DNA of 64,000 bases from Micropterix aruncella (taxonomy: Eukaryota; Arthropoda; Insecta; Lepidoptera; Micropterigidae), in NCBI GenBank assembly GCA_944548615.1, contig OX155963.1, positions 16,887,575-16,951,574 of the forward strand, read 5' to 3'. Position 1 is the stretch's first letter, and each line of letters begins with the position of its first letter. The notes beneath the pieces are model-generated. The model did not search any database and had not been told where the DNA came from. It worked only from the letters and a program-made list of their open reading frames with translations. This document shows positions 1-54,519 of this stretch, one piece after another. A program made the position numbers and the translations under genes.

Positions 1-6
1 AATTAC

Positions 7-20
7 ATTGTAGAGAAACA
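7..20. repeat. Target site duplication, left copy, family A copy 1
   Basis: The 14-mer attgtagagaaaca here recurs exactly at 502-515, on either side of the family A repeat at 21-501. A perfect 14-bp direct repeat abutting both ends is read as a target site duplication. Confidence 0.85.
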
Positions 21-501
21 ACGGGAGCTAATGGGTGCCTGTTGCAGTTAGGCCACTAAGACCCATGTGTAAGGTTCGGCCAGACTACAGGGTCAGCACC
101 TATCCGGCAGCCTCCAAGCAGGAGGAAGAGCACGGGTAGGACTCTGGCCTGCGGGTCCAGTTTCCCCTAGCGATCGCCGTTCGGGCGCTCTTAGTCGGTT
201 TGCGCACCATGCGGCGTCATCCAATCGATTGTGAAAGCCGACGGATCACCGATACGTAACCACTCTGGAGATCGGAGTGATAAGTTGCAACTGGAGGTAA
301 GAACGAGAGTGTCGTCCCGCTGGGTCATTAACCTGGTTATCTCCCGGTAATGCGTTGGCTTCTTACGGGCGAATGGCGTAACTAGACAGTGGACTGTTTT
401 CGTCCCAAGTCTTCTACGCTTACCTCACGGGAGACAGAATGATCAAATATCGTTAAAACTTCCTGAGTTGACGGGTTCGCCCGTTATAGTCGACAGCTCT
501 A
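21..501 (-). mobile_element. Family A dispersed repeat, copy 1 (about 480 bp)
   Basis: Reverse-oriented copy of the dominant dispersed repeat. In family orientation it begins near tagagctgtcgac, carries the conserved gggcgaacccgtca block and ends with ccattagctcccgt. It is shorter than the 650-710 bp copies elsewhere and so probably carries an internal deletion. The ends are fixed by a perfect 14-bp duplication (7-20 and 502-515). There are no terminal inverted repeats, no poly(A) tail and no significant ORF. Class unknown; variable-length duplications across copies favour a retroposon. Confidence 0.85.
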
Positions 502-515
502 ATTGTAGAGAAACA

Positions 516-1429
516 TCATATCGTAGGTTGTACGCCTATCCTAGGTTGTAGACTATCGAGTTTAAAAAGAGGTAATCTGTCCTTGTACGATTCAGGATAC
601 AGTATACAGTAATTAATTAATCACGATACAGTAATTAATTAAAATAGACCCCTTTTTTCGAAAAAAAAACAATTATCCGAATTTTTGATTATCTGAATGG
701 GGTCTGGTCCCAATTGATTCAATTAATTGGAGTTCTACGGTATTACTTAAGTACTTGGCAGTACTTAACTAATGATCAATACTTCACTATAGATTATTGG
801 GTAATGACGCTGACATTGGATTGGAATTATCAAGTAATGATGCTGACAAAGAAAAAAACATTAAAAAAATCGATTTCATTTTTTTCACTAAGGCAACTCG
901 TTCGTGTGCTATGCATGCTGACTCCATACATAATTTGAATATGAATGCATACCGACGTTAAGAAACCATTTAAACTTGCAATGTTCATATTAAAATAATG
1001 GCTTCCTAAATCCGTTAGGAATGAAAGTCGATTAATGTAAACATGGGCCAGTCGCACATATTTATCATTTCATCTTATAGAATTATAATACCAAATTGGC
1101 TACTCGAAGCAATAATGTTGCAACATTTCCCTTTACTGTTGGTCGTGATTGATATGTATTATGTTCACTGATATATGAACAGATCTAAGAGAAGACCCAA
1201 ATTGAATAATAACAATACATTATTATTTTGCCTGGTTTTACCTTATTGGAACCTGCTCTGTTTCCATAAACAAATCTGTGTAACTCCTTCTTTGTATGCG
1301 AGCTCCGACGCCCGCATACTAACGCGTTCTCGAGCCGATGCCTATAGCACACCTATAGCGGACGAGGGAATGATTGGATGAACTATCTCTTTCATGCATA
1401 TGGCGGATGCTTGCTTTTCACTTATGGGC
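516..1429. other. AT-rich spacer, no supported gene
   Basis: AT-rich sequence with direct copies of agtaattaatta near 607-640. Short ORFs at 714-938 and 1175-1381 have no recognisable domain and low-complexity composition; I do not call them genes. Confidence 0.6.
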
Positions 1430-1760
1430 TCCATAGACGGTCAAAATTACTTGTCAAGTACGTGATTTTTTCCTGATTGACATGCAATTTTCACTGTTTA
1501 GTTAGAACTAAGCTTGATGGCTTGCCAAGCAAACTACGTGCCTGTCCACAATGATATTTGAAAATTTATAATGTTTCCAATGCTTGTCAAGCACGCTTGA
1601 CCGTCTATAGATTTGCTTAGAAAGCAACTCACAAGTCACACCAATTCACTACCAAACGCTCTATGCTTGACAAGCATACCTGATTTGACATTAAGCCACG
1701 TCAAGCATGCTTGTCAAGCAGGTAAATGTTCGACAAGCAATTTTGACCCTCTAGGGAGTT
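1430..1760. mobile_element. Non-autonomous TIR/hairpin element with cttgacaagc motifs
   Basis: The left end gggctccatagacggtcaaa and the reverse complement of the right end (actccctagagggtcaaaat) match as imperfect inverted repeats of about 30 bp. The interior is full of direct and inverted copies of gcttgacaagc/gcttgtcaagc. Possible short target duplication ttat on both sides. The same end motif and the same palindromes occur in the foldback at 37398-37712, so the two look like one MITE family. No coding capacity. Confidence 0.6.
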
Positions 1761-2672
1761 ATTAACTGGATGCGGTGTATTATGTGTAAACAAGTAAAAT
1801 AAAATTGTACCATTCCGGCATCTAGCTTTAACCAATTCCTGCGTCCATTGTGTTACTAAAGAGCAGATACAGAGGAGTGTGTTCTACTCTGGATTTTAAA
1901 CTGACGTCATTTCCACGCCTTTTTCGATTTAAGGGTCATTCCATTCCGCGGAGTCGCTTACTTACTATGGCTTCAAAAAGACCCATTCCGGCTCACGAGC
2001 GGATCACTCATGGAGCCTCGCGAATGAGCCGCAAGAGCTACTCTTTTTAGTAGCCTACTCTTTTTTTGCTTGTATGATCTCGTGTATCTGACATAGCGAG
2101 GCCACTCACTTCCTACGCAAAGAGTAAACCAGAAACCCGCATTGCCAGCTCATTTTTGATAGAGATTCAAGTATGTCTCCACAATATGGATCCAAAAATT
2201 AATATCTTTAAAAGTAGCTTTTTAAATGCTTTAAATTCATTAGCCATCAGTGTGTTTCTAGAACTTACGTTCGCAACGCGTCAGAGATACTCGTGCATAG
2301 AACATCGGCGAATGCGCAGAGAAAAGACATGCGAAAGTACATAAAGAATCGTTAATTATATTCCATTTTTTGCATTAATGTATGGTATTCTCTAACCTTT
2401 TATTTTTGTCTGTGTATTTTATGAATCCATTATCATCTTTCTTAACTTTTTTTTTGCTATATAATTATTTTAAAATGACAAACTGAGTAAATCGTACTCA
2501 AACTCAGTCTCAAAAACAAAAATATATTGTACATCAGTTGTACACAATACAAGTGCACCTTCGGAGAACGACAGCAACTTCTGATGCCATATACATATAC
2601 GTTGCATAGGTGGGACAAGTATTCACATCAACGTGGAAGCGTTGCCTCGTATACGTTGTGTACGTGGGATCC
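1761..2672. other. Spacer, no supported gene
   Basis: No domain, RNA gene or clear repeat recognised. Short ORFs (1850-2050, 2156-2344, 2527-2733) show no family signature. Confidence 0.5.
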
Positions 2673-2675
2673 TAA

Positions 2676-5800: not shown

Positions 5801-5970
5801 CCTTAACACTTGGGTATCTATTTATTAAAGCTTTCTAGATAAACCGGGATAAGAACCCACGGAATAAGAATAATATCGGAGGAAAAATAATATTTTCGTC
5901 CGGAACTTTATAAATACATCCTGAGTATTTGGTCTATTTTCTTCGAAGTTAAAGCATTATAGATAAATAG

Positions 5971-6632
5971 GTGGTCAACTACAACGGGCGAACCCGTCAC
6001 CTAAGGAAGTTTTACGATTAGTCGTTCTATCTCTCTGGAGTGAGCGCAGAAGACTTGGACAAAACAGTCCACCGTCAAGCTCCGCCACATTCCCGTAAGA
6101 GGCCAACGCCTTAACCGCGAGATAGCCAGAAGTGTTACCCAGCGGGCTTACACTCAAGCCCTTACTTCCAATTGCGACCAGATTACTCCAATCTCTCGAT
6201 TGGTTACGAGTTCGAGGTCGCTTGCGCGGTCCTCTTCCTTACGAAGCGGTGAAACGGTGTATACCGAATCTTTCGCGGACCACGCCATCCTTTGCCCGGC
6301 TGTTTACCCAGGATCGGGTAGCCGATGGTCGTTTCAAGAGCAGTCGCCGTAAGGTCTGCAGACACCCCCGCTCTATAGGAACCAGTACTGCTTTCAGACT
6401 CCTCCGACTGTTAGTCAGAGTGCACAATCGATTGGCTTACGCCGCACGGTGCGCAGACCGTCCAGGAGCGACAGAAGGTTGATTCGTAGGGAAAACTAGC
6501 CATAAGGCCAGAGTCCTACCCGGGCTCGCACTTCATGCGTGGAGGCCGCCGGATGGGTGTTGACCCGTGAGTGTGACCAACCCTGAACAGAATGGGTCTT
6601 CGTGGCCAACTCAGCAAGGGCCCATTACCTCC
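5971..6632 (+). mobile_element. Family A dispersed repeat, copy 2 (near full length)
   Basis: Near full-length forward copy. It starts gtggtcaactac, carries gggcgaacccgtca, and ends at gggcccattacctcc. It closely matches copies at 45914-46589 and 40292-40874 (same subfamily). An open frame at 6132-6482 is shared by those copies, but I have no evidence it is translated. It sits within or next to family B sequence, which continues at 6690. No clear target duplication found. Confidence 0.8.
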
Positions 6633-6689
6633 TAGAGACACTAAGATCATTTCATAAAGGAGATTTTTTCCTAGAGAGACTAAGATCTA

Positions 6690-7276: not shown

Positions 7277-7354
7277 TACATCATATTTACATATCATATC
7301 ATATCATCATTATCATCATCATTATCATCATCACCATCATTATCATATCATATC
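7277..7354. repeat. Microsatellite (atatc)n/(atcatt)n next to family A
   Basis: Degenerate tandem repeats of atatc and atcattatc. The matching pentanucleotide follows the other end of the same family A copy at 11791-11813, so the element either landed in, or is bounded by, this microsatellite. Confidence 0.8.
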
Positions 7355-7451
7355 GGGAGTTAATGGGCCCTTGCTGAGTTGGCCACGAAGACCCATTCTG
7401 TTCAGGGTTGGTCGCACTCACGGGTCAACACTTATCCGACGGCCTCCACGC
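7355..7451 (-). mobile_element. Family A copy 3, first segment (split by later insertions)
   Basis: Carries the family A 3' end in reverse: gggagttaatgggcccttg through ggcctccacgc. The sequence stops abruptly at 7451, and the next family A position resumes at 11217 (ttgaagtacgagcctggg). The two pieces are halves of one copy interrupted by about 3.76 kb of later insertions. Confidence 0.8.
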
Positions 7452-7677
7452 TGTGACGAACTACTCGTCACGGGAATTTACTTCTTTAAAATATAATAGT
7501 AAAACTCCGATATAATTCACTTTACACTTCGCCACAATTTAATCGGCACATAAATGAATTATCTTGACTTCCAACCGTTGCCATAATCGCATCATGCGAT
7601 ACAACAACGCACACCCCTAGTCGGATTCGCGGCAAAAAAATTGCCAGACGACTAAATTCAAAACAAGCATTGACCCA

Positions 7678-9297
7678 TTGATTAAATCAACATCCATTCA
7701 TAACATTAGACAACGAGTGAGACCACCTATCACACAATTTAATTTCACGGCCACAACGCCATACGAACTACGACGCATCATCAAAAAAATACAAACTAAT
7801 GCGACTGGGTGCGACAATTTAAATATTGCACTTATCAGCCCAATTATTGAGCCAATTCTTTCAGTTCTCACTCACATCATTAACTTCTCTTTCACAAATC
7901 GTAGCTTCCCTACTCTTTGGAAACGGGCCTTTATCATCGCCTTACCTAAAACATCTTCACCTCTGCTGCCCAAAGACTATAGGCCAATTTCTATATTGCC
8001 TATTTTCTCGAAGGTTATAGAACGCGTCGCATACATTCAACTAAACCACTTTCTTGTCTCTCATGGACTACTTAATTCTCTCCAATCCGGTTTTCGCCCT
8101 GGTCACAGCACTACCTCAGCTCTGGTCAAAGTCACCGATGACATTAGATGCGCTATGGACAATAGAAAACTCACAATTCTCACACTCTTAGATTTCAGTA
8201 GCGCATTTAATACGGTCGATTTTGATCTATTGCTGGAGCGGTTGCACTCTCTCAAAATCTCAGATGATGCAGTAATGTGGTTTGACTCTTATCTGAAGGG
8301 GCGCCGACAGTGTGTTAAATCAGCCGACACTTCCACCGATCTGATCGACCTTACTGCCGGCGTACCCCAGGGAGGAGTCCTTTCCCCTCTTCTCTTCTCT
8401 ATATTTATCAGCCCCATAACCGAGAACCTTACCACCTCGTATCACCTTTACGCTGATGATCTACAAGTTTATATCCACACAAAACCGGACGATATTGACT
8501 CTGCCATACTTGATATGAACTCGTCTCTTGCCCATATATCTTCTTGGGCTAAAAGTCATGGCATTGTCTTAAATCCTACTAAGACCCAATCAATTATAAT
8601 TGGCAGTCAACAATTACTGTCTCCTATTTCTCTATCATCTTTACGTCAAGTAGAAATCGAGGGCAACGTCATTGGGTATTCTAAAGTTGTAAAGAATTTA
8701 GGCATACTCGTGGACGAGACATTTTCTTGGCAAGCACAAGTCAACGAAGTAAGCAGGCGAATATATAATGGCTTTCATAGCCTTCGGAGGTTGCAGAGAT
8801 TCCTACCTGTAAGCACTAAGCAAACCATAATTCAAAGTCTTCTCCTGCCGTTACTAGACTATGCCGATGTCGCATATTTGGATCTCACCGAAAACAGACT
8901 GGATAAACTTGAGCGCCTACAGAACGTTTGCATAAGGTACATATTCAATCTGAGGAAGTATGACCATGTTTCCGAGTACCGATCAAAATTGCAATGGCTT
9001 CGTATACGGGACCGGAGAAATTTGCATATTCTTTCACTTCTATATAATGTCCTACACAATCCTACATCTCCCTCCTACCTCAACGAGGCTTTTACCGGAT
9101 TAGGAAGTCATGGTCTCCCACTTCGTTCAAGTCAGAATAATATCCTACGTATCCCAAAACACAATACCACTTTTTTTTCCTACTCCTTCTCCGTACATGC
9201 AGCTCGACTGTGGAATCAGCTTCCTTTAACTATTCGAGGCGCTAGCTCGCTGTTCACCTTTAAGCAATCATTGAAAAAGCACTTCCTTTCACAATAA
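7678..9297 (+). pseudogene. LINE reverse transcriptase (CR1/L2-like), N-terminally truncated
   Basis: A 539-codon open frame encoding the reverse transcriptase domain of a non-LTR retrotransposon, which would copy element RNA at a nicked target. Visible motifs in order: a GCDN-like segment near residue 43, KDYRPISIL near 100, SGFRPGHSTTSAL near 136-148, LLDFSSAFNTV near 167, AGVPQGGVLSPLLF near 228, the catalytic YADD near 257-260, and a C-terminal WNQLP segment typical of CR1, L2 and Rex1 elements. The endonuclease domain is missing. The frame has no true ATG at its start and is open upstream to the truncation at 7665. The body is uninterrupted, so the insertion is fairly young although dead on arrival. 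The clade cannot be fixed without alignment. Confidence 0.9.
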
Positions 9298-9591: not shown

Positions 9592-9612
9592 TATTGCTGT
9601 AGTGTAGCAATA
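9592..9612 (+). other. Conserved 3' UTR hairpin of the LINE
   Basis: tattgct, a 7-nt loop and agcaata form a 7-bp stem. The equivalent position in another LINE 3' end (33250-33269) has tattgcc, a 6-nt loop and ggcaata. The last pair changes T-A to C-G on both arms together, which supports a conserved RNA stem. Many LINE reverse transcriptases recognise a 3' stem-loop, so a template-recognition role is a fair inference. Confidence 0.6.
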
Positions 9613-9708: not shown

Positions 9709-11216
9709 CAAAACCGACCGGATCGGGCGTTCAGTTTTATACCCTCTCTTAGTTTTGAACCGCGGAACGAAGCGGAAGTGCTCGCGGCCGCTGGGAGTCA
9801 AACCCCCAGCGGGCCACATTTTCTTGCAAAGCGGAGCCGCAGTGACACGTATAAGTTCGTCTGAAATTCAATAGTTTTACCGGGCAATATCAGTGCGCAA
9901 ATCCCGCAGTCGAGCCGCAACGAACCCCAGCCTCCGAGGGACCTACCTTCCATATCAGGCGAGTTTTTAGGGTTCACGTTTTTCTGACTCCCCAAACTTT
10001 AATACCCCAGAGTTCAGCTAATGAGTATTATATTTCATATTAAACAATCTAATCAATCAAATCTAGTGCTAGAGCGCTCTCTATAGTTCGCCTTAGGGCG
10101 TTTCCCGTTCAATCGTCAATTGACACATTATTCAACCTAGCCGAGCGCGAGAAAGAATCCAAGGATTCGGCGCGTAGTTCCCGTGAAACCGTGGGGCGAT
10201 TCAGAGAACGCGCTCCCTAGTAGTCGGCGGCCTACAGACCGACGTAACGCAAGCCCCGCGCGCCGGCGGTTGTTGAAGGTTCTCACCTTTTCAAAGGCCC
10301 CCTTTATATAAAAACTATAAAAGCACATCGATAGAGGTGTTCCCAAATCTATTCCGAGATCCCCATATCAACCCATAAGCGCGGACCTACCCTGAGTTTG
10401 GCGACCTACCTACCGTCACTTTCCACGCACGCCCCCGGCGATTCCTCCGCTCTGAAGGGCTTGCAAAGGTACTAGAAGGCCTCCCGAATATATTTCGCAT
10501 ACTTAAATCAAAAATGTTTTCCTAATAAAAGCTGTAATTTACGAGTAATAAATCTTGTATCGTACTTTGAATCTTTCTTTTTTAAAAGGGTTAAACTCTC
10601 GCACACGGAGAGAAATTCTATTACTGCTTTACGATAAAAAATGGTGCAAGGTCAAATTAGCAACGTACGAAAGTAACTGCTCCGAATCGGCGCGAAGTTC
10701 GCCGCTACACATCGGCGCAGAAACCGCCGCGCAGCGATCTGACAGCTCGGATCGCGCGCGACTTCACAGCGGTCGTATATCTACTTTATCTTTCAGGTTC
10801 AGCGATAAGCCACAGTAAGTACGCCTTATATCCCTATTTTATTACTTTTCCACTTTGTTTTCCATAATCTTACCTTTTTTCACAATAGAAGCAAGGCTGT
10901 CCTTCTCCTCCAGAAGCTCTCCTTTTCCCGCGCAGGATTCCTTGGGTTTACCACGACCCCTTCCACTGAGCAGTCGCGGTCCCAGGTACTGTTGCGCATC
11001 CCCTTCTGCGGCGTTCAAGGTCAGGCAGCGGCCACGCCTGCTTTTTCTCGTAGCGACCCGAACCCCCAATCATCCAGGATTTCCGTGGTGGCGCCTACAC
11101 TCACACATCACGAAACCATTTCACCTTCTTTTCCACGGCAATCCTAAATTCCATGAAAGATATTTTTCCCATGACCTAACAACAGGCTTTTCCTTAATCG
11201 GGTAACATTACAACGC

Positions 11217-11790
11217 TTGAAGTACGAGCCTGGGTAGGACTCTGGCCTTATGGATAGTTCCCCTAGGAATCAACCTTCTGGCGCTCCTGGACGGTCTGCG
11301 CATCGTGCGGCATAAGCCAATCGATTGCGCACTCTGACTAACAGTCGGGGGAGTCTGGAAGCAGTACTGTTTCCTATATAGCGGGGGTGGTTGCGGACCT
11401 TACGGCGACTGTTCTTGAAACGACCATCGGCTACCCGATCCTAGGTGAGCAGCCGGGCATAGGATGCCGTGGTCCGCGATAGATTCGGTATACACCGTTT
11501 CACCGCTTCGTATGGGAGAGGACCGCGCAAGCGACCTCGAACTCGTAACCGATCGAGAGACTGGAGTATTCTGGTCGCAATTGGAAGTAAGGGCGTGAGT
11601 GTAAGCCCGCTGGGTAACACTCCTGGCTATCTCGCGGTTAAGGCGTTGGCCTCTTACGGGTTGGTGGCGGAGCTAAACGGTGGACTGTTTTTGTCCAAGT
11701 CTTCTGCGCTCACTTCAGGGAGATAGAACGACTAATCGTTAAAACTTCCTGAGGAGACGGGCTCGCCCGCTGTAGTCGACAACCCTAGTT
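11217..11790 (-). mobile_element. Family A copy 3, second segment
   Basis: Resumes the family A copy begun at 7355-7451 and runs to gtcgacaaccctagtt. Contains cgggctcgcccgctgtagtc, the family 5' block in reverse. It is followed by an (atatc)n stretch at 11791-11813, like the one left of 7355. An open frame at 11469-11726 belongs to the repeat. Confidence 0.8.
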
Positions 11791-11870: not shown

Positions 11871-12440
11871 TAGAGTTGTTAACTACTACGGGTGAATCCG
11901 CCACCCCAGGAAGTTATAATGATATTAGATCGGTATTTCAACCGTGGGGTGAACGCAGAGATTTAAGGACAACACAATCCATTGTATAACCACACCAACA
12001 AGGACATATGAGTCTAACGCCTTACCGCGAGGCATTGGGAAGTGAAGATCAGGCAGACCTTGCGCCCTTGCGCCTTGACCGTCCTCCCGTCTCGTCAAGG
12101 ATTCGAGGTCGCTTACGCAGTCTCTGCCAGATGTAAGTGGTAAATTAGTTAGAACATATAGCGAACTGAAGCGTCCTTTGCCAGCCACGGTCACTCGGGA
12201 TCGGGTGGCTTCAAGGATAGATGACTTCAAGTCGACAACTACCTCTACTCTCTAGGAGACATACATCTCCAGACCCCTTTGGTCATTCGACGGATTGCGT
12301 AAGCGTGGTTGATACAGCCTGGTACGCAAACCGTCCAGCTTCACCCGAGGTAGTACCCCGAATCCTTAATCTTCTAATCTCAAGTGCTTTCGACTGCAGC
12401 TTACAGTCGAGGCATAAAATCACAGCGGCCCTAAGAGGTT
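11871..12440 (+). mobile_element. Family A copy 4, diverged
   Basis: Starts tagagttgttaactactac and retains cgccaccccaggaagtt, the gatcggtatttc block and traces of the middle (gattcgaggtcgcttacg in reverse-related form). More diverged than its neighbours, and the 3' end cannot be placed exactly, so the right limit is approximate. Confidence 0.6.
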
Positions 12441-13041: not shown

Positions 13042-13568
13042 AAGTTGGGTTGTCAACTACAAAGGGCGAACCCGTCATCTCAGGAAGTTTTAACAATAGT
13101 CATTGTTCTATCTCTCATTAGGTGAGCGTAGATGAGTTAGAGACAATACAAATCTTACGTCTAGCTAAGCCAACATGCCGGTCAGAGCCCAACGCCTTAC
13201 GGCGAGGCACTGCGAAAGGTATCCAGCAGGCAGCCTCACCCCCTGACTACTAATTTTGGCAGGATATCTCCGTCTGGATTTAACCATCAAGATACATCCG
13301 TCCTTTCGACCGGTCACGGGTTCGAAATCGCTTGCGAGAATCTCTACCTGCCGTATGTTTAGCGGTGATTCCATTTGAATCTATCGCGGACCATGGCATC
13401 TTTTGCACGGCTCTGAACTCAGGATCAGGTAGCCAATTGGTCATTTCAAGAGTGGAAGACGACACGTCAACATCCACCCCCGCTGCTTAGGAGACAGTAT
13501 ATTTTCATAGTCTCCTAATTCCTTTAGTAAATAATCAGAGTGCACAGCCGATTGGCTGATGCTGTACG
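13042..13568 (+). mobile_element. Family A copy 5, 3'-truncated
   Basis: Starts agttgggttgtcaactac and keeps the family order through aatcagagtgcacagccgat, then breaks near gatgctgtacgtaaac. The last 150 bp or so of the family is missing. ORFs at 13165-13374 and 13280-13477 (minus) lie within it and are not genes. Confidence 0.75.
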
Positions 13569-13957
13569 TAAACGTAAACATGTACATTTTTTTTTTCTCT
13601 TTATTTGAAAAAACTAAATTGTTATAAGTACCTACATACATAACAAGTTTAAATACGCGATAAATATGTATAGGCATAAAGAATAAAAAATAATACAGAA
13701 TACATAAAAAAAATAAAAACAGCCGATCTTATTCTGAAAAAAATAAGTAACGCAATACCCACACCATGAAGAGATGTGGGCTCGCTGTAATAATATCGAG
13801 GTCTGACGCTGTCGAACATAGACCACTTATGTGCCGTACGGCACGCGTAATCAGACTCCACCGACTTGGGTTGGTTCGCGAGGACAGTTTCGCAAATAGA
13901 GTATGTGACCGAGCTCGATTATAACTATCCGGAACAAAGAGACAAACCTTCGCTAGC

Positions 13958-16936: not shown

Positions 16937-17593
16937 ACTAGAGCCGTCATTTACAACGGATGAACCCGTCACCTCAGGATGTTTTAACGATATTAGATCG
17001 GTATTTATTGTTCTGTCTCCTGTGAGGTGAGCGTAAAAGACTTGGGACGAAAACAATCCAATATCTAGAGACGCCACTCGCCCATAAGAAGCAAACGCCG
17101 TATCGCGAGAAACCGGGTTTTCAACCAGCGGGCCGACACTCGCGCCCTCACTTCCAGTTACAGCCAGATTTCTCCGGCCTCCCGACTGGTCACAGGTTCG
17201 AGGCCTCCCTTGGGTAGCGGTGATTCAGTGTCTACCTAATCTATCGCGGACCACGGAGTCCTTTACCTGGCTGTTCGCCCGGTATCGGGTAGACAAACGG
17301 TCGTTTCAAGAGCGGTTGCTACAAGGTAAACAGCCGCCCCAGAAAAAAAAAGCCGTTTCCAGATTCCCCCGGCTATCAGTCGGAGTGGACAATCGATTGG
17401 TTAACGCTGCACAGTGCGTAAACCGTCCAGGAGCGCCCGATTACGATTCAGGGGAACTGGACCGCAGGCACAGAGTCCTACCCGGTCTCGCACATCTGCT
17501 TGGAGGCTGCCGGATGGGTGTTGACCTGTGAGTTCAGCCGACCCTAAAACACATGGCTTATAATGGCTTAACTATACAAGGCCCATTAGCCCC
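16937..17593 (+). mobile_element. Family A copy 6, full length
   Basis: Starts actagagccgtcatttac, contains ggatgaacccgtcacctcag and ends gcccattagcccc. Both family ends are present. An open frame at 17220-17531 corresponds in position and phase to those of the copies at 5971 and 45914. Confidence 0.8.
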
Positions 17594-17661
17594 CTAATAC
17601 ATGATAATAACAGCTGCATCATAAACATTGTCGCGGATACGATACAACTACGATACGATAA

Positions 17662-18640
17662 GGCCCGGTAGCTCACTGGTTAGGTCGCCAGACCTTACAT
17701 TTGGTAGCGAATGGTTTCGTGCAGTTCGGACCATAAGATCCATTGTGTTTCTAGGGTCGGTCCAACTCCCGATTCAGCTCCTATTCAGTAGCCTCCTCGA
17801 GTGAGGAACTACCCTGGATAGGACTCTCGCGTCCAAGGCGTCACAGCTAGTAGATCGCTTTCCCTTGTGGGATTGCCTTTCGGCGCTACTGGACGGTTTA
17901 CGCACCGTTCGGCGACGGCAATCGGTTGTGCACTCTGACTAATTACTGAAGAAGTCTGGAGACTATGGAAATAATCTGTCTCCTAAGCAGCGGCGGTGGA
18001 TGTTAACCTGCCGTCTTCCACTCTTGATCACAAATGACCAATTGGTTACCTGATCCTGAATTCAGAGCTGGGTATAAGATTATGGTCCACGATATATTCA
18101 AACTGAATCACAGCTGAACCTACGGCAGGTAGATGTCCGCGCAAGCGATCTCGAACCCGTCACAAGTCAGAGGACGGAGGTATTCTGATGGATAAATTTA
18201 GATGGAGATATCCTGCCAAAACTGGTATTCAGGGGGCGAGGCTGACACTTGGTTACCTTCCCGGTGCCTCGTCGTAAGCTTACTGGGCGGTAGGTTTGTA
18301 CTCGTCCTCAAGTCTTCTACGGTTACCTCACTGGAGACAGATCGACCAATATCGTTAAAACTTCCAGGGGTGACGGGTTCGCCCATTGTAGTCGACATCT
18401 CTAACGAATCTTACATTGTAAGATTCCGAGTTCGATTCCCGGCCGGGTCATTATTTTTCCGTTAGGATAAAATAAGGGAATTGCATTTTCAATGCAGTCG
18501 ATCCAATGAAATAACAAGAAATACGATTACACACGTGTTACATGGACACATACATAAAACACCTCGTAGTAGGGTTGGTTGTAAGAGATCACCATACGGA
18601 AATAAAACCACCCATTGTGAAATTTCACAATAAAGATTAG
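17662..18640 (+). mobile_element. tRNA-derived SINE interrupted by family A
   Basis: The head ggcccggtagctcactggtt (17662 on) contains an A box (tagctcactgg). After the family A insertion (17702-18409) the SINE continues with cttacattgtaag and a B box (gttcgattccc), followed by a tRNA-unrelated body to about 18640 that ends near cccattgtgaaatttcac. Both RNA polymerase III promoter boxes are thus present but separated by 0.7 kb. The body is shared with the SINE at 36842-37145. Confidence 0.8.
17702..18409 (-). mobile_element. Family A copy 7, inserted in a SINE
   Basis: Reverse copy, from tggtagcgaatggtttcgtg to gtcgacatctctaacgaat. The 8-mer cttacatt occurs at 17694-17701 and again at 18410-18417, once on each side; the uninterrupted SINE has it once. 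This fixes both ends and shows that the family moves as a unit of about 708 bp. Same 3' subfamily (gcacgaaaccattcgcta) as the copies at 45193 and 53626. Confidence 0.9.
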
Positions 18641-25060: not shown

Positions 25061-25985
25061 GTATTTGTAATATTAATTCAGCAAAATAAATTATACAAAG
25101 TGTATTACTCTCCACAACATATTACCGATTTTTAAATAACCGATTATGGTTCTTCCGAATTTATTACACAAAAAGAAGTGTTAAGTGTTTAGATGCCATG
25201 TTAAGTGTTTAGATGTAATTTTTTTAGTCCTTTCATTAAATCACGGTCTTTTTATTTTTAGCTCCGAAAAGAATTTCAACAGTTACATTTTTTCTAATAT
25301 CAACTGCAATGTTTTCCCCCGCATTCACGAACTAATGAGACTAAAACTCCTATTCGTGCACTCATATAAAAGAGCATATATTGCAAGAAGGTGTCCTTGT
25401 ACATTGTTAAATAAAATAGAAGATTGGGCGTCCGATTGAACGCGTTCTAAAAAGCTCCTTCCCCGTGGGGCGGGCAGGAAAACACGTGGCGTTATGGGCG
25501 GAAGAGGATTACCGTCCCAGCCCGATATTGTACTGCCAGGGCGGAAAGTGGATACGGGGGGCGCGGATCGAAAACCATCGGTATTCAACCTAATATAATA
25601 AAAATAATAAAATCGTAACTTGAAAGCAAAACAGACAATTCGTTGAATGGTTGCCAAACTACCTCTCCATTAAAAAAAACCACCTCCACATTCCTACTTC
25701 CCTCTTTTGGGTTGAATTTCGCAAAACCCTCGAATACTTATCCACTTCTTGATGATAAATAGATAAGTAACTCAGTCAAGTTAGATAAGAGCATTTGCCT
25801 TTTATATTATACTGGCTTAACCCGGCTTCGATTCGCTGTGGCTCAGTCTGATATGAAATGAATGGGAAACACACCGATGTCGAGGCGCACCAAAGAATCT
25901 ACCGGTGCGGGAGGGGGTGTATCGATTGCAACATTATGTCAAAATTTCATTTTACTATAAAAATGCGCGTATTCAAATGCGTATT
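25061..25985. other. Spacer, no supported gene
   Basis: The minus-strand frame at 25325-25657 lacks any recognisable feature. Nothing else seen. Confidence 0.5.
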
Positions 25986-26640
25986 CGTGCAGCTTGGGTG
26001 GTGTTGTCCAAAATCTATTTCATTTGGCCAGCACAACTCACGGTTCAACTCCTATTTGGTAGACTCCTCGAAGAAGGGCTTACCCTATCAGAGCCGCTGT
26101 GAGCTTCTGCCACGGCTGTAATCCTGCAGTTTGGAAGCGGTTTGGGATAAGAAGATAGCGGATTCGGGGGAATACCTCAGGCGGAACTAGTCAGCTGGCA
26201 AATAATTAGAGGGATCTGGAGACGTACGTTTCCTATGACAGCGGAGGGTAGTTATCGACCGGACGTCTTCAACCCTTGAATTGATCCGTCGGCCACCCGA
26301 TCCCTAGGGACCATGGCGGGCAAAGGGCGTCGCGGTCCGCAAAATATTTAAACTGAATAACCGCTAATGTCGGGTAAAGGCCGCGCAAGCGACCTCGAAC
26401 CCGTAACCAGATCGGAGGACGGAGAAATCCAGCCAAATCTGGTAGTAAGGGCGAGAGGTTGGCCGGTAGTTTTCAAATTTCAGTGCCTCGCGGTAAGGCG
26501 TCTGATTCTTACGGGCATGTTGACGAAGCTAGAATGTGGACTGTGTTGTCCCTGAGTCTATCACCTCACGGCTGAAAGGACGATCTATATCGTTATAACA
26601 GACTGAGGTGTCGGGTCGATGTACACAGATGTACGTCAAA
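25986..26640 (-). mobile_element. Family A copy 8, diverged
   Basis: Reverse copy from cgtgcagcttgggtggt to about the tcgttataacagactgaggt block. Contains gcgcaagcgacctcgaaccc. Ends are approximate and no target duplication is seen. The ORF at 26367-26555 lies inside. Confidence 0.7.
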
Positions 26641-38626: not shown

Positions 38627-39287
38627 TTTAAGTTGTTACATACAACGCGCGAGCCCGTCACGCCAGTTAGGGTAGTTATTCTTTCAATAGTGGGGTGAAC
38701 GTAGAGACTTATGGGCGAGACATTCCACAGTCGAGCTACGCCAGCATGCCCATCAGAGACCAACGCCTTATCAAGAGGCACTGGGAAGAGAAGCCAGCGG
38801 GCCGACCTCGCACCCTGACCACCAGATTTGGACGGATTACCCCGTCCTCCCGTCAGATCACTGGTCCGAAGTCGTTTGCGCGGACCAGTGACCTGACGGG
38901 ACTCTACCTAATGTTAGCGGTAATCCAGTTTGAATTTATCGCGGACCGTGGCGTCATTAGCCCGTCTACCATTCAGGATCGGCTGGCCAACGGGCCAATC
39001 TCAAGGGTAGGAACGTCTTCCGCGCTGCTTAGGAAACGTAAAAGAGCATTTCTATTCTTCCTCCCACAGTCGATTGGCTAACGCCGCACGATGCCTAAAC
39101 CGCCCAAAAGCGACCGAAAGACATCCCCCAGAGAAATCGATCAATTATGTCGTAATAGGGGAAAATGAAGCCCTTTCCAGGTTCGATCATCTTCGATGAG
39201 GCTACCAGATAGGAGTTGAACCGTGAGTTAAGCTGAACCAAGAAACCGAGTGGGTCTTAGCGGCCCATCTGCATGAGAACCATTAGC
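38627..39287 (+). mobile_element. Family A copy 9, with 18-bp target duplication
   Basis: Starts tttaagttgttacatacaac, carries gcgcgagcccgtcacg and ends gagaaccattagc. Flanked by a perfect 18-bp direct repeat (38609-38626 and 39288-39305), the longest seen for this family. Full length at 661 bp. The ORF at 38695-39081 is within it. Confidence 0.9.
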
Positions 39288-39477
39288 TGCCATTCTATGA
39301 TCAGTCTAAAATCTAAGATAAGCCTGAAACCTAGAATCCCATTTAGAGCTGGATACTTTACATTTTAGTTTTTCTGGTTATCTAATTCGGGCGGATTGCA
39401 CTTTCTAATATTGAGAACGTTTTAATGTGTATTATTTAAGGATGTAAGCATACAGACGCATAATGTCGATATCTTGG

Positions 39478-40291: not shown

Positions 40292-40874
40292 TCTGGCACT
40301 TCATGTGGCCTCCACGCATGAAGTGCGAGCCTGGGTAGGACTCTGGCCTTATGGTTAGTTTCCCCTGGGAATCAACCTTCTGGCGCTCCTGGACGGTCTG
40401 CGAACCGTGCGGCATAAGCCAATCGATTGCGCACTCTGACTAACAGTCGGGGGAGTCTGGATGCAGTACTATTTCCTATAGAGCGGGGGTGGTTGCGGAC
40501 CTTACGGCGACTGCTCTTGAAGCGACCATCGGCTACTCGATCCTGGGTGAACAGCCGGGCAAAGGATGCGGTGGTCCGCGATAGATTCGGTATACACCGT
40601 TTCACCGCTTCGTAAGGGAGAGGACCGCGCTAGCGACCTCGAACTCGTAACCAATCGAGAGACTGGAGTAATCTGGTCGCAATTGGAAGTAAGGGCGTGA
40701 GTAACACTCCTGGCTATCTCGCGGTTAAGGCGTTGGCCTCTTCGGTTTGTGGCAGAGCTAGACGGTGGACTGTTTTTGTCCTAAGTCTTCTGCGCTCACT
40801 CCAGGGAGATAGAACGACTACTCGTTAAAACTTCCTGAGGTGACAGGCTCGCCCGCTGTAGTCGACAACTCTAG
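40292..40874 (-). mobile_element. Family A copy 10, end-truncated with a snap-back hairpin
   Basis: Reverse copy flanked by a 14-bp duplication with one mismatch. The family 3' end is missing beyond ggcctccac. In its place the first bases are tctggcacttcatgt, so that gcacttcatg and catgaagtgc form a perfect 10-bp inverted repeat around an 11-nt loop. The target duplication lies outside this, so the odd end formed before or during insertion. The frame at 40372-40605 (minus) corresponds to that of copies 2 and 12. Confidence 0.85.
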
Positions 40875-45192: not shown

Positions 45193-45904
45193 GTAGGGCG
45201 GTGTCGACTACAACGGGCGAACCCGTCACCCCAGGCTGGTATAACGATATGTGATCGTTCTTTCAGCCGTGGGATGAGCGTAAAAGACTTAGAGACAAGA
45301 CAATCTAATGTCTAGCTCGCCAACAACCCGTTAGAGACCAACACCCTACGGCGAGGCACCAGGAATGGCACGGCAGCCTCGCCCCCTAACTACCAGTTTT
45401 GGTAGGATATCTCCGTATGGAGTTAACCTTCAGGATACCTCCATCCTACCGACTGGCCCGAAGTCGCTTACGCGGCCTCTACCTGTTGTATTACAGCGGT
45501 AATTCAACTTGAATTTATCGTGGACCTGGGCGTTCTTTGCCGGCAGTGCCACACAGGATCGAGTGGTCCATGGTAATTTCAAGAGTGGCACGACAACAGG
45601 TCAACATCCACCCCCGCTGCTTAGGAGACAGTATATTGCCATAGTCTCCAGACTTCTTCAGCAATTAGTCAGAGTGCACAACCGATTGGCGTCTCCGAAC
45701 GGCGCGCAAACCGTACAGTAACGCCGGGACGCAATCCCGCCAGGAGAAACCTGTCCACCAGCTTTGAGGCCCGAGACGCGAGAGTCTTGCCCGGAGTAGC
45801 CTTCTGCACGTGGAGGCTTCTGAATAGGAGCTGAATCGTGAGCTGAGCCGATCCGACAACAAAATGGATCTTGTGGCCCAAGCTGCACGAAACCATTCGC
45901 TAGT
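45193..45904 (+). mobile_element. Family A copy 11 (712 bp), first of a tandem pair
   Basis: Starts gtagggcggtgtcgactac and ends gcacgaaaccattcgctagt. Belongs to the same subfamily as copies 7 and 14. Bounded by aaagggata on both sides. The frame at 45509-45721 and its minus-strand shadows are inside. Confidence 0.9.
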
Positions 45905-45913
45905 AAAGGGATA

Positions 45914-46589
45914 TATGGAGTTGTCAACTACAACGGGCGAACCCGTCGCCTTAAGAAGTTTTAACGATTAGTCGTTCTCTCTCCCGTGAAGTGAACGCAG
46001 AGGACTTGGACAAAACAATCCATCGCCAAGCTCCGCCACATGCCCGCGAGAGGCCAACGCCTTAACCGCGAGATAGCCAGGAATGTTACCCAGCGGGCTT
46101 ACACTCACGCCCTTGCTTCCAATTGCGACCAGATTACTCCGGTCTCTCGATTGGTTGCGAGTTCGAGGTCGCTTGCGCGGTCCTCTTCCTTACGAAGCGG
46201 TGAAACGGTGTATACCGAATCTATCGCGGACCACGGCATCCTTTGGCCCGCTGTTCACCCAGGATCGGTTAGCCGATGGTCGTTTCAGGACCAGTCGCCG
46301 TAAGGGCCGCAACCACCCCCGCTCTATAGGAAACAGTACCTACCTCTTCCAGACTCCCCCGACTGTTAGTCAGAGTGCACAGTCGATTGGCTTACGCCGC
46401 ACGGTGCGCAGACCGTCCAGGAGCGCCAGAAGGTTGATTCCTAGGGGAAACTAGCCCTAAGGCCAGAGTCCTACCCGGGCTCGCACTTCATGCATGGAGG
46501 CCGCCGGATGGGTGTTGACCCGTGAGTGTGACCAACCCTGAACAGAATGGGTCTTCGTGGCCAACCCAGCAAGGGCCCATTAGCTCCCC
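45914..46589 (+). mobile_element. Family A copy 12 (676 bp), second of a tandem pair
   Basis: Starts tatggagttgtcaactac and ends gggcccattagctcccc. Belongs to the other 3' subfamily (with copies 2, 3 and 10). Also bounded by aaagggata on both sides, sharing the middle copy with its neighbour. It holds one of the longer family open frames (46083-46454). Confidence 0.9.
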
Positions 46590-46599: not shown

Positions 46600-47467
46600 A
46601 GCAATGTAGACGAATAGAGTCGAAAAGGTTGGGTATTTAAAAAAAACTCATTTAAGGTTCTGTGACCTTAACTGAGCATTTCCCCATTAGCTGTATAGAA
46701 ACATTTAATATTTTGTGTAGAATAACATGTATGAATCTACGTAAAAGGTCATTCCATAGAGAGAAATACAGCTATTGTAATTTGTACAACGATGCAAACG
46801 CTGCATGTTTCAAAAAGTTCGGACGTGTAAATTTCACGCAGTCGCGAACAAAATAGTTGGATTTGGTAACGCGGAGATAGGCTTGAGCAAACGTCGGAAC
46901 AATACAACCCGACCTTTTATCACTTCTGCTGCTATTATTACCGATGAGAATGGATGAGATTTTATTTACTACATTTTGCAAAACGTAAGTATTTTAAATC
47001 CTATTTTCTATATTATTCTATTTTATTTTATAGTTCTGAAAAACATTCATATTTGTTGACTATTAATGATTCTATGTTTAATTTTGACAAAAAAAATATT
47101 TTTACTAATTTTGGAAAGTTTTAATAATTTGAAATACTTTTGACTATTTTAAACTAGTTCTTTAATTTTAACTCCATCTATAATCTACTTTTTTCTAAAT
47201 GATATTTTCTTTAAAAAAATGTAAATAACATATACAGATAGGGGGCTAGATTGCGTTTCTCTTGAACTAAAATCGGAAATTACTTCATGTGAAAGAGACA
47301 GAGTAGTGCATCAGAGCGGAATGTGAAATGAATGGTTGTAACTTTTCCGCATTAAAACTACCCACCGAAGATAAAGCAGCTAAATCTAACACCGCATGAA
47401 ATGTTTTCAAACTTATTCAGGCGACTATAAGTTCGACAGGTAGTTTTGGTGCGGGAAAGGTCTGCTA
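46600..47467. other. AT-rich spacer, no supported gene
   Basis: Frames at 46662-46856 and 46772-46981 (minus) are opposite-strand overlaps without features. Confidence 0.5.
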
Positions 47468-47474
47468 TAAATTC

Positions 47475-47812
47475 ATATTGAATTACCGCTGTAATACAAC
47501 AGGTGGAGACCGCGCAAGCGACTTCGTTTCCGTAACTAGTCGGAAGGACGGAGGTATTCTGAAGGTTAATTCCAGACGGAGATATCCTGCCAAAACTGGT
47601 AGTCAGGGAGCGAGGTGGCCCCACTGTGTTACCTTCCTAGTGCCTCGCCGTAAGGCGTTTGCCTCGCTGGACGGTAGATTTGTATCGTCGTAAGTATAGA
47701 TAACATTTGTATCGTCGGTAGATTTGTATCTACGATCACCTCACGAGAGACAGAACGATTATTATCGTTAAAACTTCCTGAGGTGACGGATTTGCCCGTT
47801 GTAGTCGACATC
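47475..47812 (-). mobile_element. Family A copy 13, partial
   Basis: Reverse copy from taccgctgtaatacaacagg to tagtcgacatctccg. Only the family 5' half remains. A short stretch (gtagatttgtatc) is repeated near 47680-47730. Confidence 0.75.
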
Positions 47813-47815
47813 TCC

Positions 47816-50100
47816 GTATTTTTTTAATTTATGCACTACTTTTTAGCAATTATAATTATTTGAATACTAGATTGGACACCTTAGACCAGGCATCCTATAA
47901 CCTAGTTAGGTGACATTATATTGATAAAATAGGTGTTCTTGCCTCTACATTTTTATCTATAATATTTTGATTGTACATGTTGTCCATTTTGCTGTAGATT
48001 ATTGTCAATTACAAATGAAATCAAATTAAACTTCATTTAATTATCTGTATTATGATAAATTTCAAGATGCTGATGCTAACGATGCGAAAAAAATATTCTA
48101 GGTTTTAAATACATCGGCAACCGAAAATAGAGAAAACAATATCTAGTAGTCAACAATAAAATTAAAATAATATGAAATTCATTAATAACAAACTAATATC
48201 AAAAAATATATACTAGTTGTTGAACAATAGTAGCATTTCTCACTTGAGTACCGATTTGCCATAAAATAAATTCCGCCGTTGGTGGTCGATCAGCAATTGA
48301 ATACAAATTTTGTGATAACTTAATGACATGAGTCACTGTCATTCTCACAACACAATTGACACTTGTTTAATAAACTTAATAAATAAATCTCATATAGAAA
48401 ATAAATTTCAAATAGACACCCCCCGATCCTAAAGGGGCGTCTTTACTGGTCTGAATGCATGAACTAATAAAAAGACGTATCAATAGAAAGCAATGAATAG
48501 GTCATTTACAATGTCGAATTGACCTTAAGAATTGCTTTCCAAGCCTTTCTGGACTGTATTAATTTTATCAAGGATTTGGAGGATAGTTTCAATTCATGCA
48601 CGAAAGAAATTGGCAAGTTTGTATATGAAAAAATAAACATCTTACCTTCAAAAACCTTAAACTGGAAACGCTAAAAGCTTTGAAACTTTAAAAGATTTCA
48701 GAAGACCCCAATTTAGCGGTAGTTATAGACGCTTGATTTTTCACACATTTAATAAAATGGACAAATGCGGAATTAAAATTGAAATATTTCAGAAACTTCT
48801 TATCCCTAAACGCTAGCATGGAATGTGAAATAATTATTGCGATACACGATATTTTGCCGAGATTTACACCTGGTGTGCTCAGCTGTGACCAGGGACACTT
48901 TTTAAATACAAAACGCCGATACAAAATACTCTCTAATAATAGGATTTCAAAAAACGCAAAAGGACACACGGAAACATATCTTCAAAAATGTACTCAATCA
49001 TCACCTTACAGGATACCGTGATCTAACGATATGCGTCAGTGTCATGACACTGCGATTTTGTATTCGAAAGTAATTTGCACTAAGGTTTTGTATGAAGAAC
49101 TACTCCTTTACCCGTCCCCTTAATTCAGTCCAAATATGAGGGTAAATTTATAAATCTCAATTGCTTATACTCGTATATTGATCAAGAATGCAAAGATATC
49201 TTCATTTCAAGAATAGATTCCTTACGATTACACCAGGATAAAAATACAATAGGATTTAAAAACTTCACGTGATTTAAAAAAAAACAAGTATCACAAATAA
49301 ACTAATACACTGTCAGATTTAATATCAACTCTTTCATGCACTATGGGAACCGCCACTAACCAGTAAACAAGCTTTAAATCAAAAACCAATTTATGATTTT
49401 CGTGAATCGTACACTTTACGCGCACATTAATAATAATTTGTAAGCTGTATGTAACACTCGAAATTTTCGAAATTCGCGCGCTCCGGGCCCGGCCCCCCAA
49501 CACCGTTATAACCTACGCAGTGGCGACAGCGGTATGCGGCCTATCCGCAAAACAACGGATTGACAGCTCTTTCAGTCTACCCTGGACAACGGCGGCTGCA
49601 ACGTCACCGAAATGTCGGATGCTACAAATTTCACGCGGTAAATTCATTTCTATCCCATTTATAATAAAAAGGTTTTTATTTTATTTTTTTCAAAAAATAT
49701 ATAAGAGTTATTTTTACACAACGATTTTGCTTCACTCATAACTAGGCAGTGCCTGTTCCAAGGAAAACGCCAATTTTATATGATTTCATTTTTTTTATTA
49801 TTATTTAGTTTTATAAAAAAGATGTCAATAAATTGTGTTCGTAAATTAAAAGAAATAATATAAAATAAAATAAAGCATCATCATGATCTTACAAATTAAT
49901 GTAAAATAATAATACATTTCTTCCCAGAAAACTACAATGTCATGCATTTTAAGGATTTACTTAGAAAATTCAAATTTAAATGTGAAGAGTTTTGTTTCTG
50001 TCGACCTAAATCTACAGCTTTCGACTTAGTTACGACGTGTAGCTCCAGGCGCCGCCCGCCAATGTTTTAATTCAAAGCAAATATGATTCTACCTTTGCTA
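47816..50100. other. AT-rich spacer, no supported gene
   Basis: Short frames (48688-48969, 48779-49021, 49291-49503, 49520-49741) overlap on opposite strands and show no domain. Nothing convincing seen. Confidence 0.45.
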
Positions 50101-52574: not shown

Positions 52575-52660
52575 GCCATTCATACATATTGTGTCATTCA
52601 TACACTACATATGTGTCATTCATACACTACATATGTGTTATGCCATTCATAAATTTGTTT
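52575..52660. repeat. Tandem repeat of about 27 bp
   Basis: gtgtcattcatacactacat repeated twice with partial flanking units. Confidence 0.85.
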
Positions 52661-52785
52661 CTTTGCGAAACGGCCTGTCGAAGCAAACTGGTTACCCGAT
52701 CCAGAAAAAAATCTGATACGTAGACATTATTTCCTTATTTTTGATAGGTAGACATACTGTCTAATAGACAGATATTTATTATAGA

Positions 52786-53543
52786 CTGGCTGTTGCCCGC
52801 GGCTTCGCTTCGCGTAAAGTTTCGAATCGATTTGTTAATTTAAGTAGCGTGGCGTTTATTTGCCTTTTTAGGCGCTACCTTTAGATATATAGTGCGAGAC
52901 GCCCCCCTCAGATGCACGCTACCTATCTCGTAGACGTACGCGTCTTGTTCCTCGCCACCCGCTGAACGCTGACCTTGCTGGGCCAGCAGCCGCCGCCGTC
53001 TGCTAGGTATTTCGGTGTGCTTGCACGCGTTACTAATTTCATGCTATCTCTATAACTATACCACCTAAAAAAAATATTTTGATGAGGATTCTTATTTCAT
53101 TGCTAATGTCTTCAACAAACAATGCCTACTTATTTTTCTTATTTTTTTGAGACATACCTACTCGTAAAAGCAGTTATTGTGGCTTAAATATAAAAGATGG
53201 ATATATAATGATGTCGCAGACTTTTTTATAGGTCTTTTTGAGGCCGATATTGTCATATATCGTTTTCCGTTTCGTTAACGCATGCCGATAAAGCAACTCA
53301 CCAGCTCATTTTTCTCCGACTGGATTTAAAATATCATGATTTCGAAAGGAAAACCAATATTTATCACATTTAAATATAACCTATAGCACTTATCGATAAT
53401 GGAGCTTTCTATTAGTGAAATAATTTTGGAAATCGGATGAGTAGTTTCGTAGATACACACTTACAAGCTTACAAACATACAAACTTACAAACTTACAAAC
53501 ATACAAACTTACAAACATTACTTCTTTATGATATTAGTTTAGA
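52786..53543 (-). mobile_element. Non-autonomous Helitron (Lep1-like)
   Basis: In minus orientation it starts tctaaactaatatcataaag after an A. This resembles the TC-plus-actaatatta start of lepidopteran Lep1-type Helitrons. It ends with a GC-rich hairpin region (cgcgaagcgaagccgcgggc) and acagccag followed by T, close to the canonical CTRR-T end. Near the 5' end is an (acaaactt)n-type repeat at 53460-53520. No ORF. End motifs are slightly decayed. Confidence 0.65.
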
Positions 53544-53612
53544 TAGATATGATAGATAGACATCAGAAATATCTAACAGACATTTTAACAAAAATAGCAT
53601 TCTGGACAAGGG

Positions 53613-53625
53613 GAATTCTTAAAAC
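53613..53625. repeat. Target site duplication, left, family A copy 14
   Basis: gaattcttaaaac here and gaattctaaaaac at 54330-54342 differ at one base. Confidence 0.75.
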
Positions 53626-54329
53626 AGTAGGGCGGTGTCGACTACAGCAGGCGAACCCGTCACCCCAGGCTGTTATAATGATTATATGTGATCATTCTTT
53701 CAGCCGTGGGATGAGCGTACAAGACTTAGAGACAAGACAATCTACCGACTAGCTCCGCCAACAAACCCTTTAGTGGCCAACGCCTTACGGCGAGGCACCG
53801 GGAAAGGTAAAAGCGAGCAGCCTCGCCCCCTAACTACCAGTTTTGGTAGGATATATCCGACTGGAGTTATCCTTCAGGATACCTCCATCCTCCCGACTGG
53901 TTAGGGGTCCGAAGACGTTTACGCGGCCTCTACCTGTTGTAATTACAGCGGTAATTCAATTTGAATTTATCGCGGACCTGGGCGTTCAAAGACCAAGGTC
54001 ATTTCAAGAGTGGCATGACAATAGGTCAACATCCACCCCCGCTGCTTAGGAGACAGTATATTGCCATAGTCCCAGACTCCTTCAGCAATTAGCCAGAGTC
54101 CACAACCGATTGGCGACGCCGAACGGTGCGCAAACCGTGCAGTAGCGCCGAGATGCAATCCCACCAGGTGAAACCGGTCCACCTGCTTGTGAGGCCTGAG
54201 ACGCGGAAGTTTTACCCGGGGTAGCCTTCCGCACAAGGAGGCTTCTGAATGGGAGCTAAATCGTGAGTTGAACCGATCCGAGAACAAAATGGATCTTGTT
54301 GCCCAAACTGCACGAAACCGTTCGCTACC
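53626..54329 (+). mobile_element. Family A copy 14 (704 bp)
   Basis: Starts agtagggcggtgtcgactac and ends gcacgaaaccgttcgctacc. Same subfamily as copies 7 and 11. Flanked by a 13-bp duplication with one mismatch. A frame at 53967-54344 (minus) is contained and not a gene. Confidence 0.88.
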
Positions 54330-54519
54330 GAATTCTAAAAACAAATAGAACTATAAAACAAAGCTAACATATTTAGAATGTGACTCATGAGCAAATTAAT
54401 AATAGGTCTTTCTTGACACCGAATAAGGCTATATATTACTTGCCATGCACGTATTTTTATACGTGTACTTTTCGATAAATAGGCTTAGAACATCTCGTTG
54501 TTTAGTTTTACATTCCCGG

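Follow-up and report, generated by a model that had tools for sequence, protein, structure and literature searches.

A dense non-coding repeat family of Micropterix aruncella, probably a long, structured and LINE-dependent retroposon

A stretch of 64,000 nucleotides from the moth Micropterix aruncella (Lepidoptera, Micropterigidae; GenBank assembly GCA_944548615.1, contig OX155963.1, positions 16,887,575 to 16,951,574, forward strand), hereafter the window, carries a dense family of non-coding repeats with a summed length of 8564 bp, or 13.4% of the window. The family was collected with an nhmmer profile (--max, all filters off) over the 64 kb, together with a self-comparison. Of 17 profile rows, 16 have E values of at most 1.9e-18 and the remaining one (E 0.6) is no better than chance, and the 16 significant rows amount to 14 loci once split and deleted copies are merged. 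Rows 23-251 and 252-500 are a single copy with an internal deletion (a1), while rows 7355-7464 and 11211-11786, here taken as a3 (7354-7452) and a4 (11213-11785), are the two parts of a copy that an insertion of 3.76 kb, with the 5-bp repeat ACGCT, has split; a count of 15 copies was rejected for this reason. The first-pass annotation of this DNA had described a 0.5-0.7 kb family of about 14 copies with a shared order of blocks, and the profile search and a motif scan recover the number and the blocks, respectively. The insertion itself (7453-11212) holds a reverse transcriptase (RT) open reading frame (ORF) at 7621-9297 and a (TTCA)14 run, with no direct terminal repeats in a self-comparison.

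Full-length copies measure about 0.66-0.71 kb, and their GC content of 47-58% per copy compares with about 39% for the window. In the profile search, the homology of a5 and a9 extends beyond the range found by blastn. A tree, midpoint-rooted for drawing only, resolves three supported groups: clade I (a1, a2, a4, a7, a11, a13), clade II (a6, a8, a12, a14, a15) and clade III (a5, a9, a10). Identity is 57-71% between clades and reaches 89-94% in the closest pairs. The copies are as follows, strands being those of the sense orientation argued for below.

22..501, plus (sense strand): a1, clade I, with internal deletion; 14-bp target duplication ATTGTAGAGAAACA at 7-20 / 502-515
5969..6634, minus: a2, clade I, full length; no clear target duplication
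7354..7452, plus: a3, 5' part of the copy split by the insertion 7453-11212
11213..11785, plus: a4, clade I, 3' part of the a3/a4 copy; TATCATATCATATC common to both flanks (repetitive stretch)
11871..12370, minus: a5, clade III, lacking the first ~175 model positions
13045..13580, minus: a6, clade II, lacking the first ~200 model positions, 3' end kept
16939..17596, minus: a7, clade I, full length; no clear target duplication
17702..18403, plus: a8, clade II, full length; 8-bp duplication CTTACATT (17694, 18410); within tRNA-like sequence
25974..26618, plus: a9, clade III, diverged; missing ~15 nt at the 5' end and the final ~23 model positions
38629..39292, minus: a10, clade III, full length; 18-bp exact duplication
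40300..40873, plus: a11, clade I, sense 5' end truncated; duplication of 14 bp with 1 mismatch, 40278-40291 / 40875-40888
45196..45903, minus: a12, clade II, full length; downstream (sense) member of a tandem pair
45916..46589, minus: a13, clade I, full length; same site as a12, TATCCCTTT flanking and separating the pair
47446..47816, plus: a14, clade II, lacking about the first half, 3' end kept
53630..54329, minus: a15, clade II, full length; 13-14-bp duplication with 1 mismatch

Many copies are bordered by short direct repeats. Five such duplications had been reported earlier and a motif scan finds all of them, three exact (14 bp, 7/502; 8 bp, 17694/18410; 18 bp, 38609/39288) and two with one mismatch (14 bp, 40278/40875; 13 bp, 53613/54330). 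The 9-bp duplication claimed for the tandem pair is likewise present, TATCCCTTT occurring three times, before, between and after a13 and a12; the pair therefore represents two insertions of different clades at one site. Template jumping would be expected to leave no target copy between the elements. When both flanks of each of the 14 loci were compared ungapped, with scores of at least 8 counted and flanks of different loci as control, a repeat was found in eight loci against 11 of 182 mismatched flank pairs, some of which are likely real as a12 and a13 have common flanks. The scores are 14 for a1, 8 for a8, 18 for a10, 10 for a12, 9 for a13 and 11 over 14 bp for both a11 and a15, and 14 for a3/a4, where the repeat falls in a TATCA-rich stretch. 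The target duplications are 8-18 bp long and thus not of one length. The copy a8 splits a tRNA-like sequence (GGCCCGGTAGCTCACTGG ... GAGTTCGATTCCCGGCCGGG, 17662-17701 / 18418-18450); the rejoined flanks look tRNA-like by eye, and ARAGORN calls no gene there.

The truncated copies give the family a direction. The first-pass annotation had the 5' and 3' labels the other way round, and two lines of evidence reverse them: the truncation of a11 with its snap-back, and the better fold of the family on the reverse strand, described further on. a11 keeps the end formerly called 5', lacks about 82 nt of the end formerly called 3', and has its duplication (one mismatch) on both sides. At its truncated end lies the following feature.

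40296..40326, plus: snap-back at the truncated 5' end of a11; GCACTTCATG (40296-40305) is an exact 10-bp inverted repeat of CATGAAGTGC (40317-40326)

The family sequence of a11 begins between GCACTTCATG and CATGAAGTGC, an arrangement that an early-stopped, self-folded cDNA would leave. Four copies, a5, a6, a11 and a14, are cut short on the sense 5' side but retain their 3' end; of these a11 alone has a target duplication. The 3' end is reached in 13 of the 14 loci. The end truncation of a11 and the reverse-strand fold together indicate that TCGACTACAACGGGCGAACC, formerly the 5' head, is the complement of the element's 3' tail. A match to a LINE (long interspersed nuclear element) is therefore to be sought with GACGGGTTCGCCCGTTGTAGTCGAC and not with the other end.

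The absence of poly(A), noted at the outset, holds at the corrected 3' end, which carries neither poly(A) nor a simple-repeat tail. These observations are best explained by a non-autonomous family of long, structured, LINE-dependent retroposons, about 0.66-0.71 kb at full length and similar in kind to short interspersed nuclear elements (SINEs) or short internally deleted elements (SIDEs); to this explanation we assign a probability of roughly 0.78. Target-primed reverse transcription had been proposed from the start, and the variable-length duplications and the 5' truncation with snap-back support it. The element RNA, which is the reverse of the strand first read, would adopt a fold of several domains and end in a closed three-way junction. 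A host LINE reverse transcriptase would bind this 3' domain and nick the target, and the RNA would be copied from its 3' end (GTTGTAGTCGACAnCTCTA) toward its 5' end (GGTAGC.. or GGGAGC..), with copying sometimes stopping early; each insertion would leave a duplication, between 8 and 18 bp in length. Stringent-type LINEs are described as recognising a 3' stem-loop (PMC5135761). We infer the LINE partner and its recognition of the 3' domain, and transcription would start either at a degenerate type-2 head for RNA polymerase III (Pol III) or at a Pol II start.

The predicted fold goes beyond what the first-pass annotation contained. A consensus fold was computed from alignment A1, built on sequence only, using 10 of its 14 rows (a1, a5, a9 and a14 left out) and dropping columns with at least half gaps. 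Its energy on the sense strand is -241.9, and 40 column shuffles average -176.2 (sd 7.0; z -9.4); on the antisense strand it is -189.4 against -155.4 (sd 7.1; 40 column shuffles, z -4.8). Computed without shuffles, the energies are -153.9 (sense) and -122.2 (antisense) for all 14 rows and -236.2 and -193.5 for nine rows, and for a12 folded alone z is -3.6 on each of the two strands, against 20 shuffles per strand. The three clades fit one structure of 171 pairs, with 88.0% standard pairs over the 14 rows compared with 84.3% after shuffling of partners. Pairs changed on both sides number 41 against 25.5 in shuffles, and the cells so changed 91 against 37.0; for these two counts and for the paired share, none of 500 shuffles reaches the observed value. 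Further pair types number 140 against 130.5 in shuffles, and one of the 500 shuffles reaches the observed value. Cross-tests, in which a structure derived from one clade is applied to another, avoid the circularity of such fold tests. With the clade I structure (from four of six copies) on the clade II majority (three of five copies), 15 of 27 double-changed pairs still pair where 6.7 are expected (p 0.001), and with the clade II structure on clade I the figure is 13 of 18 where 5.9 are expected (p 0.003). An elaborate RNA fold thus seems to have been kept while a third of the sequence drifted, which may reflect selection or inheritance from a few master copies.

Several results weigh against this interpretation. 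Related rows can inflate the shuffle tests just given, and the 36-46% pairing obtained when the 171-pair structure is slid along the alignment is a control that flatters the structure, which was derived from 10 of the rows scored. Cross-tests on single copies are mixed, with p 0.47 for a5 and 0.89 for a7 for double changes, 0.02 and 0.09 for a10, and 0.14 and 0.008 for a9; the close pairs a13/a2 and a12/a15 have just 1 and 4 double changes, too few to tell. The antisense strand also folds better than its shuffles, and its cross-tests are as good as those of the sense strand from clade I to clade II (14 of 20, 4.7 expected) and give 11 of 15 (6.0 expected, p 0.02) in the other direction; the choice of strand therefore rests on the energy comparison and on a11. 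Six of the 14 loci (a2, a5, a6, a7, a9, a14) have no clear target duplication, and a9 is the only locus without its 3' end. A shared LINE 3' end had been proposed as the way to identify the partner, and within the window none is found: the family profile matches its own copies only, and the stretches 3' of two RT ORFs look unrelated to the family 3' end by eye.

One LINE of the window has an open ORF, at 57247-60576, which encodes 1110 amino acids with endonuclease and RT domains and no stop; this LINE was perhaps active recently, and its presence counts in favour of a LINE-dependent family. The best named relative is from Plutella xylostella (83% identity) and an unnamed one reaches 93%; among the 120 matches listed of 1500, the named relatives are nearly all from moths and butterflies, the exception being Branchiostoma (44%). 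The protein thus points, on its own, to a lepidopteran host.

Two parts of the predicted structure stand out. A central multi-branched domain is closed by a long-range helix that pairs columns 247-258 with 696-706 (77% of cells paired). At the 3' end, GTC..TACG is predicted to pair with TGTAGTCGAC and to close a three-way junction that encloses a hairpin arm of 13 bp and a CGGG-UUCG-CCCG hairpin. In a12 this domain is laid out as follows.

45196..45288, minus: predicted 3' terminal RNA domain of a12; closing helix of GTC..TTACG with TGTAGTCGAC, 13-bp hairpin arm and CGGG-TTCG-CCCG hairpin (helices 31-35), then 7 nt

Between the junction and the target duplication the alignment has a single-stranded stretch of about 7 nt, which is a few bases longer in some cases. 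The position of the last hairpin against the closing helix is like that of a T arm against an acceptor stem, a resemblance only. A tRNA-Ser/Leu-like string (GCGGTTAAGGCGTTGG) in the sense 3' third was dropped, as neither Rfam nor ARAGORN supports it. A more specific version of the LINE-dependent retroposon is tentative and on balance doubtful: the lineage would spread as a whole-length structured RNA of about 700 nt. Its fold, made up of the long central multi-branched domain and a 3' three-way junction in place of a tail, would be the heritable unit selected in master copies and would act as the signal for LINE uptake, with no sequence borrowed from that LINE.

The 5' end admits a different account. 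On the sense strand the element starts roughly with GG(T/G)AGC(T/G)AATGG, followed by a body of about 550 nt. Individual copies begin with GGTAGCGAA(T/C)GG (a8, a15), TAGCGAATGG (a12) or GGCAGCTAATGG (a10), and those of clade I (a1, a2, a3, a7, a13) with variants of GGGAGCTAATGG. The family may be a long SINE proper, in which a long body would join a LINE-derived tail to a tRNA-derived Pol III head (an A-like box at +2 to +4 and a B-like box near +70), a possibility to be taken seriously even if the odds are against it. In its favour, the first 110 nt of nine copies were scanned for their best match to a B-box consensus and compared with shuffles. In six of the nine this match lies at +67 to +71, and in a9 and a10 it is the perfect GGTTCAACTCC, which none of 1000 shuffles equals in either copy.

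26042-26052, plus: perfect B-box-like GGTTCAACTCC in a9, by consensus match and shuffles
39212..39222, minus: perfect B-box-like GGTTCAACTCC in a10, 71 nt from the sense 5' end, by consensus match and shuffles

By eye, the start GGTAGCGAATGGTT also resembles GGTAGCTCACTGGTT of the tRNA-like sequence interrupted by a8. However, the two copies with a perfect box are both from clade III. The match has two or three mismatches in a1, a2, a12 and a13, and in a7, a8 and a15 it lies at +56 to +58 with three, one and one mismatches (P 0.43, 0.02 and 0.02); for the five copies with two or three mismatches, shuffles do as well in 10-43% of cases (10-39% with a7 set aside). The A-like box sits at the very start and leaves no room for an acceptor strand. 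Runs of four or more T can end Pol III transcription, and they occur on the sense strand of 10 of the 14 copies. Moreover, ARAGORN and Rfam give no tRNA, 5S or 7SL match. The earlier statement that there is no clear Pol III head was judged at the wrong end. The true 5' end opens with an A-box-like sequence, and the B-box-like motif that follows near +70 is perfect in two of the nine copies tested.

The lack of a clean Pol III head counts in favour of a further explanation, in which the family is a SIDE, an internally deleted derivative of a stringent-type LINE (R2-, R4- or CR1-like) that kept the LINE's structured RNA at both ends, 5' and 3', and needs no Pol III for its transcription. This is a credible candidate that nonetheless falls short of being probable. 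SIDEs exist in Lepidoptera, for example Persaeus (PMC6740152), and the R2 SIDEs of Drosophila willistoni, in which the 5' ribozyme has diverged by 30-40% and the 3' end by 20%, keep their fold through changes that are mostly compensatory (PMC3414825). Here, however, Pfam finds no protein remnant in the six ORFs scanned, and no parent LINE is seen in the window. The first-pass annotation had found no coding capacity, and this is borne out: six ORFs of at least 110 amino acids overlapping copies have no Pfam match at E<=0.1, and each frame of seven copies examined has at least four stops. Coding was also rejected on the differences between close copies, which spread over the three codon positions (15, 20, 16 for a2/a13; 29, 22, 21 for a12/a15). 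At gathering scores Rfam gives no match in the whole window, including to an HDV (hepatitis delta virus)-like ribozyme, and a loose search (E<=10) of three stretches, with a12 and a13, a10, and a8, returns no ribozyme and at most chance-level matches (MIAT_exon5_3, E 0.24; Xist_exon4, E 9.2; mir-341, E 0.35; none for a8). Beyond these searches, no hammerhead- or HDV-like start is seen by eye. Persaeus, for its part, measures 263-386 bp and carries poly(A), unlike these copies (PMC6740152).

Improbable, in our judgement, is an origin as retrocopies of one or a few structured RNA genes of the host, diverging under selection and each seeding dead copies; the single predicted fold common to three clades would suit it, but there is no Rfam match, and a family that fills 13.4% of the window and has inserted twice at one site fits a mobile element better. 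Inverted ends or a CTRR end had been named as signs of DNA transposition. Eight copies were examined for both. None has an inverted word of more than 6 nt common to its first 30 and last 30 nt, in agreement with the earlier observation, and CTRR occurs in the last 12 nt of none on the sense strand and of one on the other strand. Although the absence of poly(A) and the fairly constant ends would be compatible with a DNA transposon, a miniature inverted-repeat transposable element or a Helitron, such an origin is very unlikely given these ends, duplications of 8-18 bp with no single length, a 5' truncation with snap-back and, for a Helitron, target duplications in eight of 14 loci.

Outside this genome, an 18-mer of the 3' tail has no match in viral contigs and one in prokaryotic genomes, a degenerate tail pattern has none, and a 17-mer of the body matches three viral contigs. 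The family profile finds nothing at E<=10 in the four viral and prokaryotic loci, and these are therefore treated as chance matches.

Several other features lie in the window. A Helitron-like ORF (62047-63750, within 60977-63750) encodes a Helitron_like_N domain and the start of a PIF1-type helicase, and the adjoining ORF at 60977-62038 is probably its continuation. At 15761-16500, a (TA)n run of 540 bp directly precedes 200 N (16301-16500), an assembly gap at a microsatellite. At 32666-33042, a run of (TCTGTATG)n precedes 1.9 copies of a tandem unit 157 bp long, and a cysteine-rich ORF of 169 amino acids at 13925-14434 looks clip-domain-like by eye and has no Pfam match.

Among known systems, the nearest in kind to a structured, LINE-dependent retroposon of this sort are the R2 and R2/R1 hybrid SIDEs of D. 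willistoni, which are likewise non-coding, with structured RNA ends, and LINE-dependent as proposed here; their 28S target sites, 5' HDV-like ribozyme, poly(A) tail and clear R2 parent are not seen here (PMC3414825). Persaeus, a CR1/Zenon SIDE, shares with the family its lepidopteran host and lack of coding capacity and probably its LINE-derived nature, and in the part of the source drawn on no Pol III promoter is reported for it, but it is shorter, ends in poly(A) and has clear Zenon homology (PMC6740152). PxSE1-5 and relatives and Metulj are also non-coding and of high copy number; they are LINE-dependent, as the present family probably is, and the Pol III boxes of their heads have possible counterparts here (PMC8010984, PMC4016481). 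In contrast to the present family, PxSE1-5 and relatives measure 252-389 bp with a tRNA or 5S head and have a simple-repeat tail in 21 of 23 table rows, the other two being given as ND (PMC8010984), while Metulj measures about 267 bp with a tRNA-like head (PMC4016481). ZenoSINE and Flambeau of heliconiine butterflies are further lepidopteran retroposons, ZenoSINE having a head of unknown origin; their tails are similar to Zenon or R1 LINEs, whereas no shared LINE tail is found in this window (PMC6685494). Among the open-licence papers listed for lepidopteran SINEs, long or structured SINEs and SIDEs, none has a title or abstract opening that describes the family, which may already bear a name in Repbase or Dfam.

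How LINE enzymes select RNAs with neither poly(A) nor a simple-repeat tail is, to our knowledge, understood only in part. A non-coding family as dense as this, if its three diverged lineages have indeed conserved one fold over most of the element's length, would constitute a natural mutagenesis record of what a LINE enzyme needs. It would also extend the range of lepidopteran SINEs and SIDEs by a structured type without a tail; in the parts of the reports drawn on, these are shorter than 400 bp and mostly simple-tailed (PMC8010984, PMC4016481, PMC6740152).

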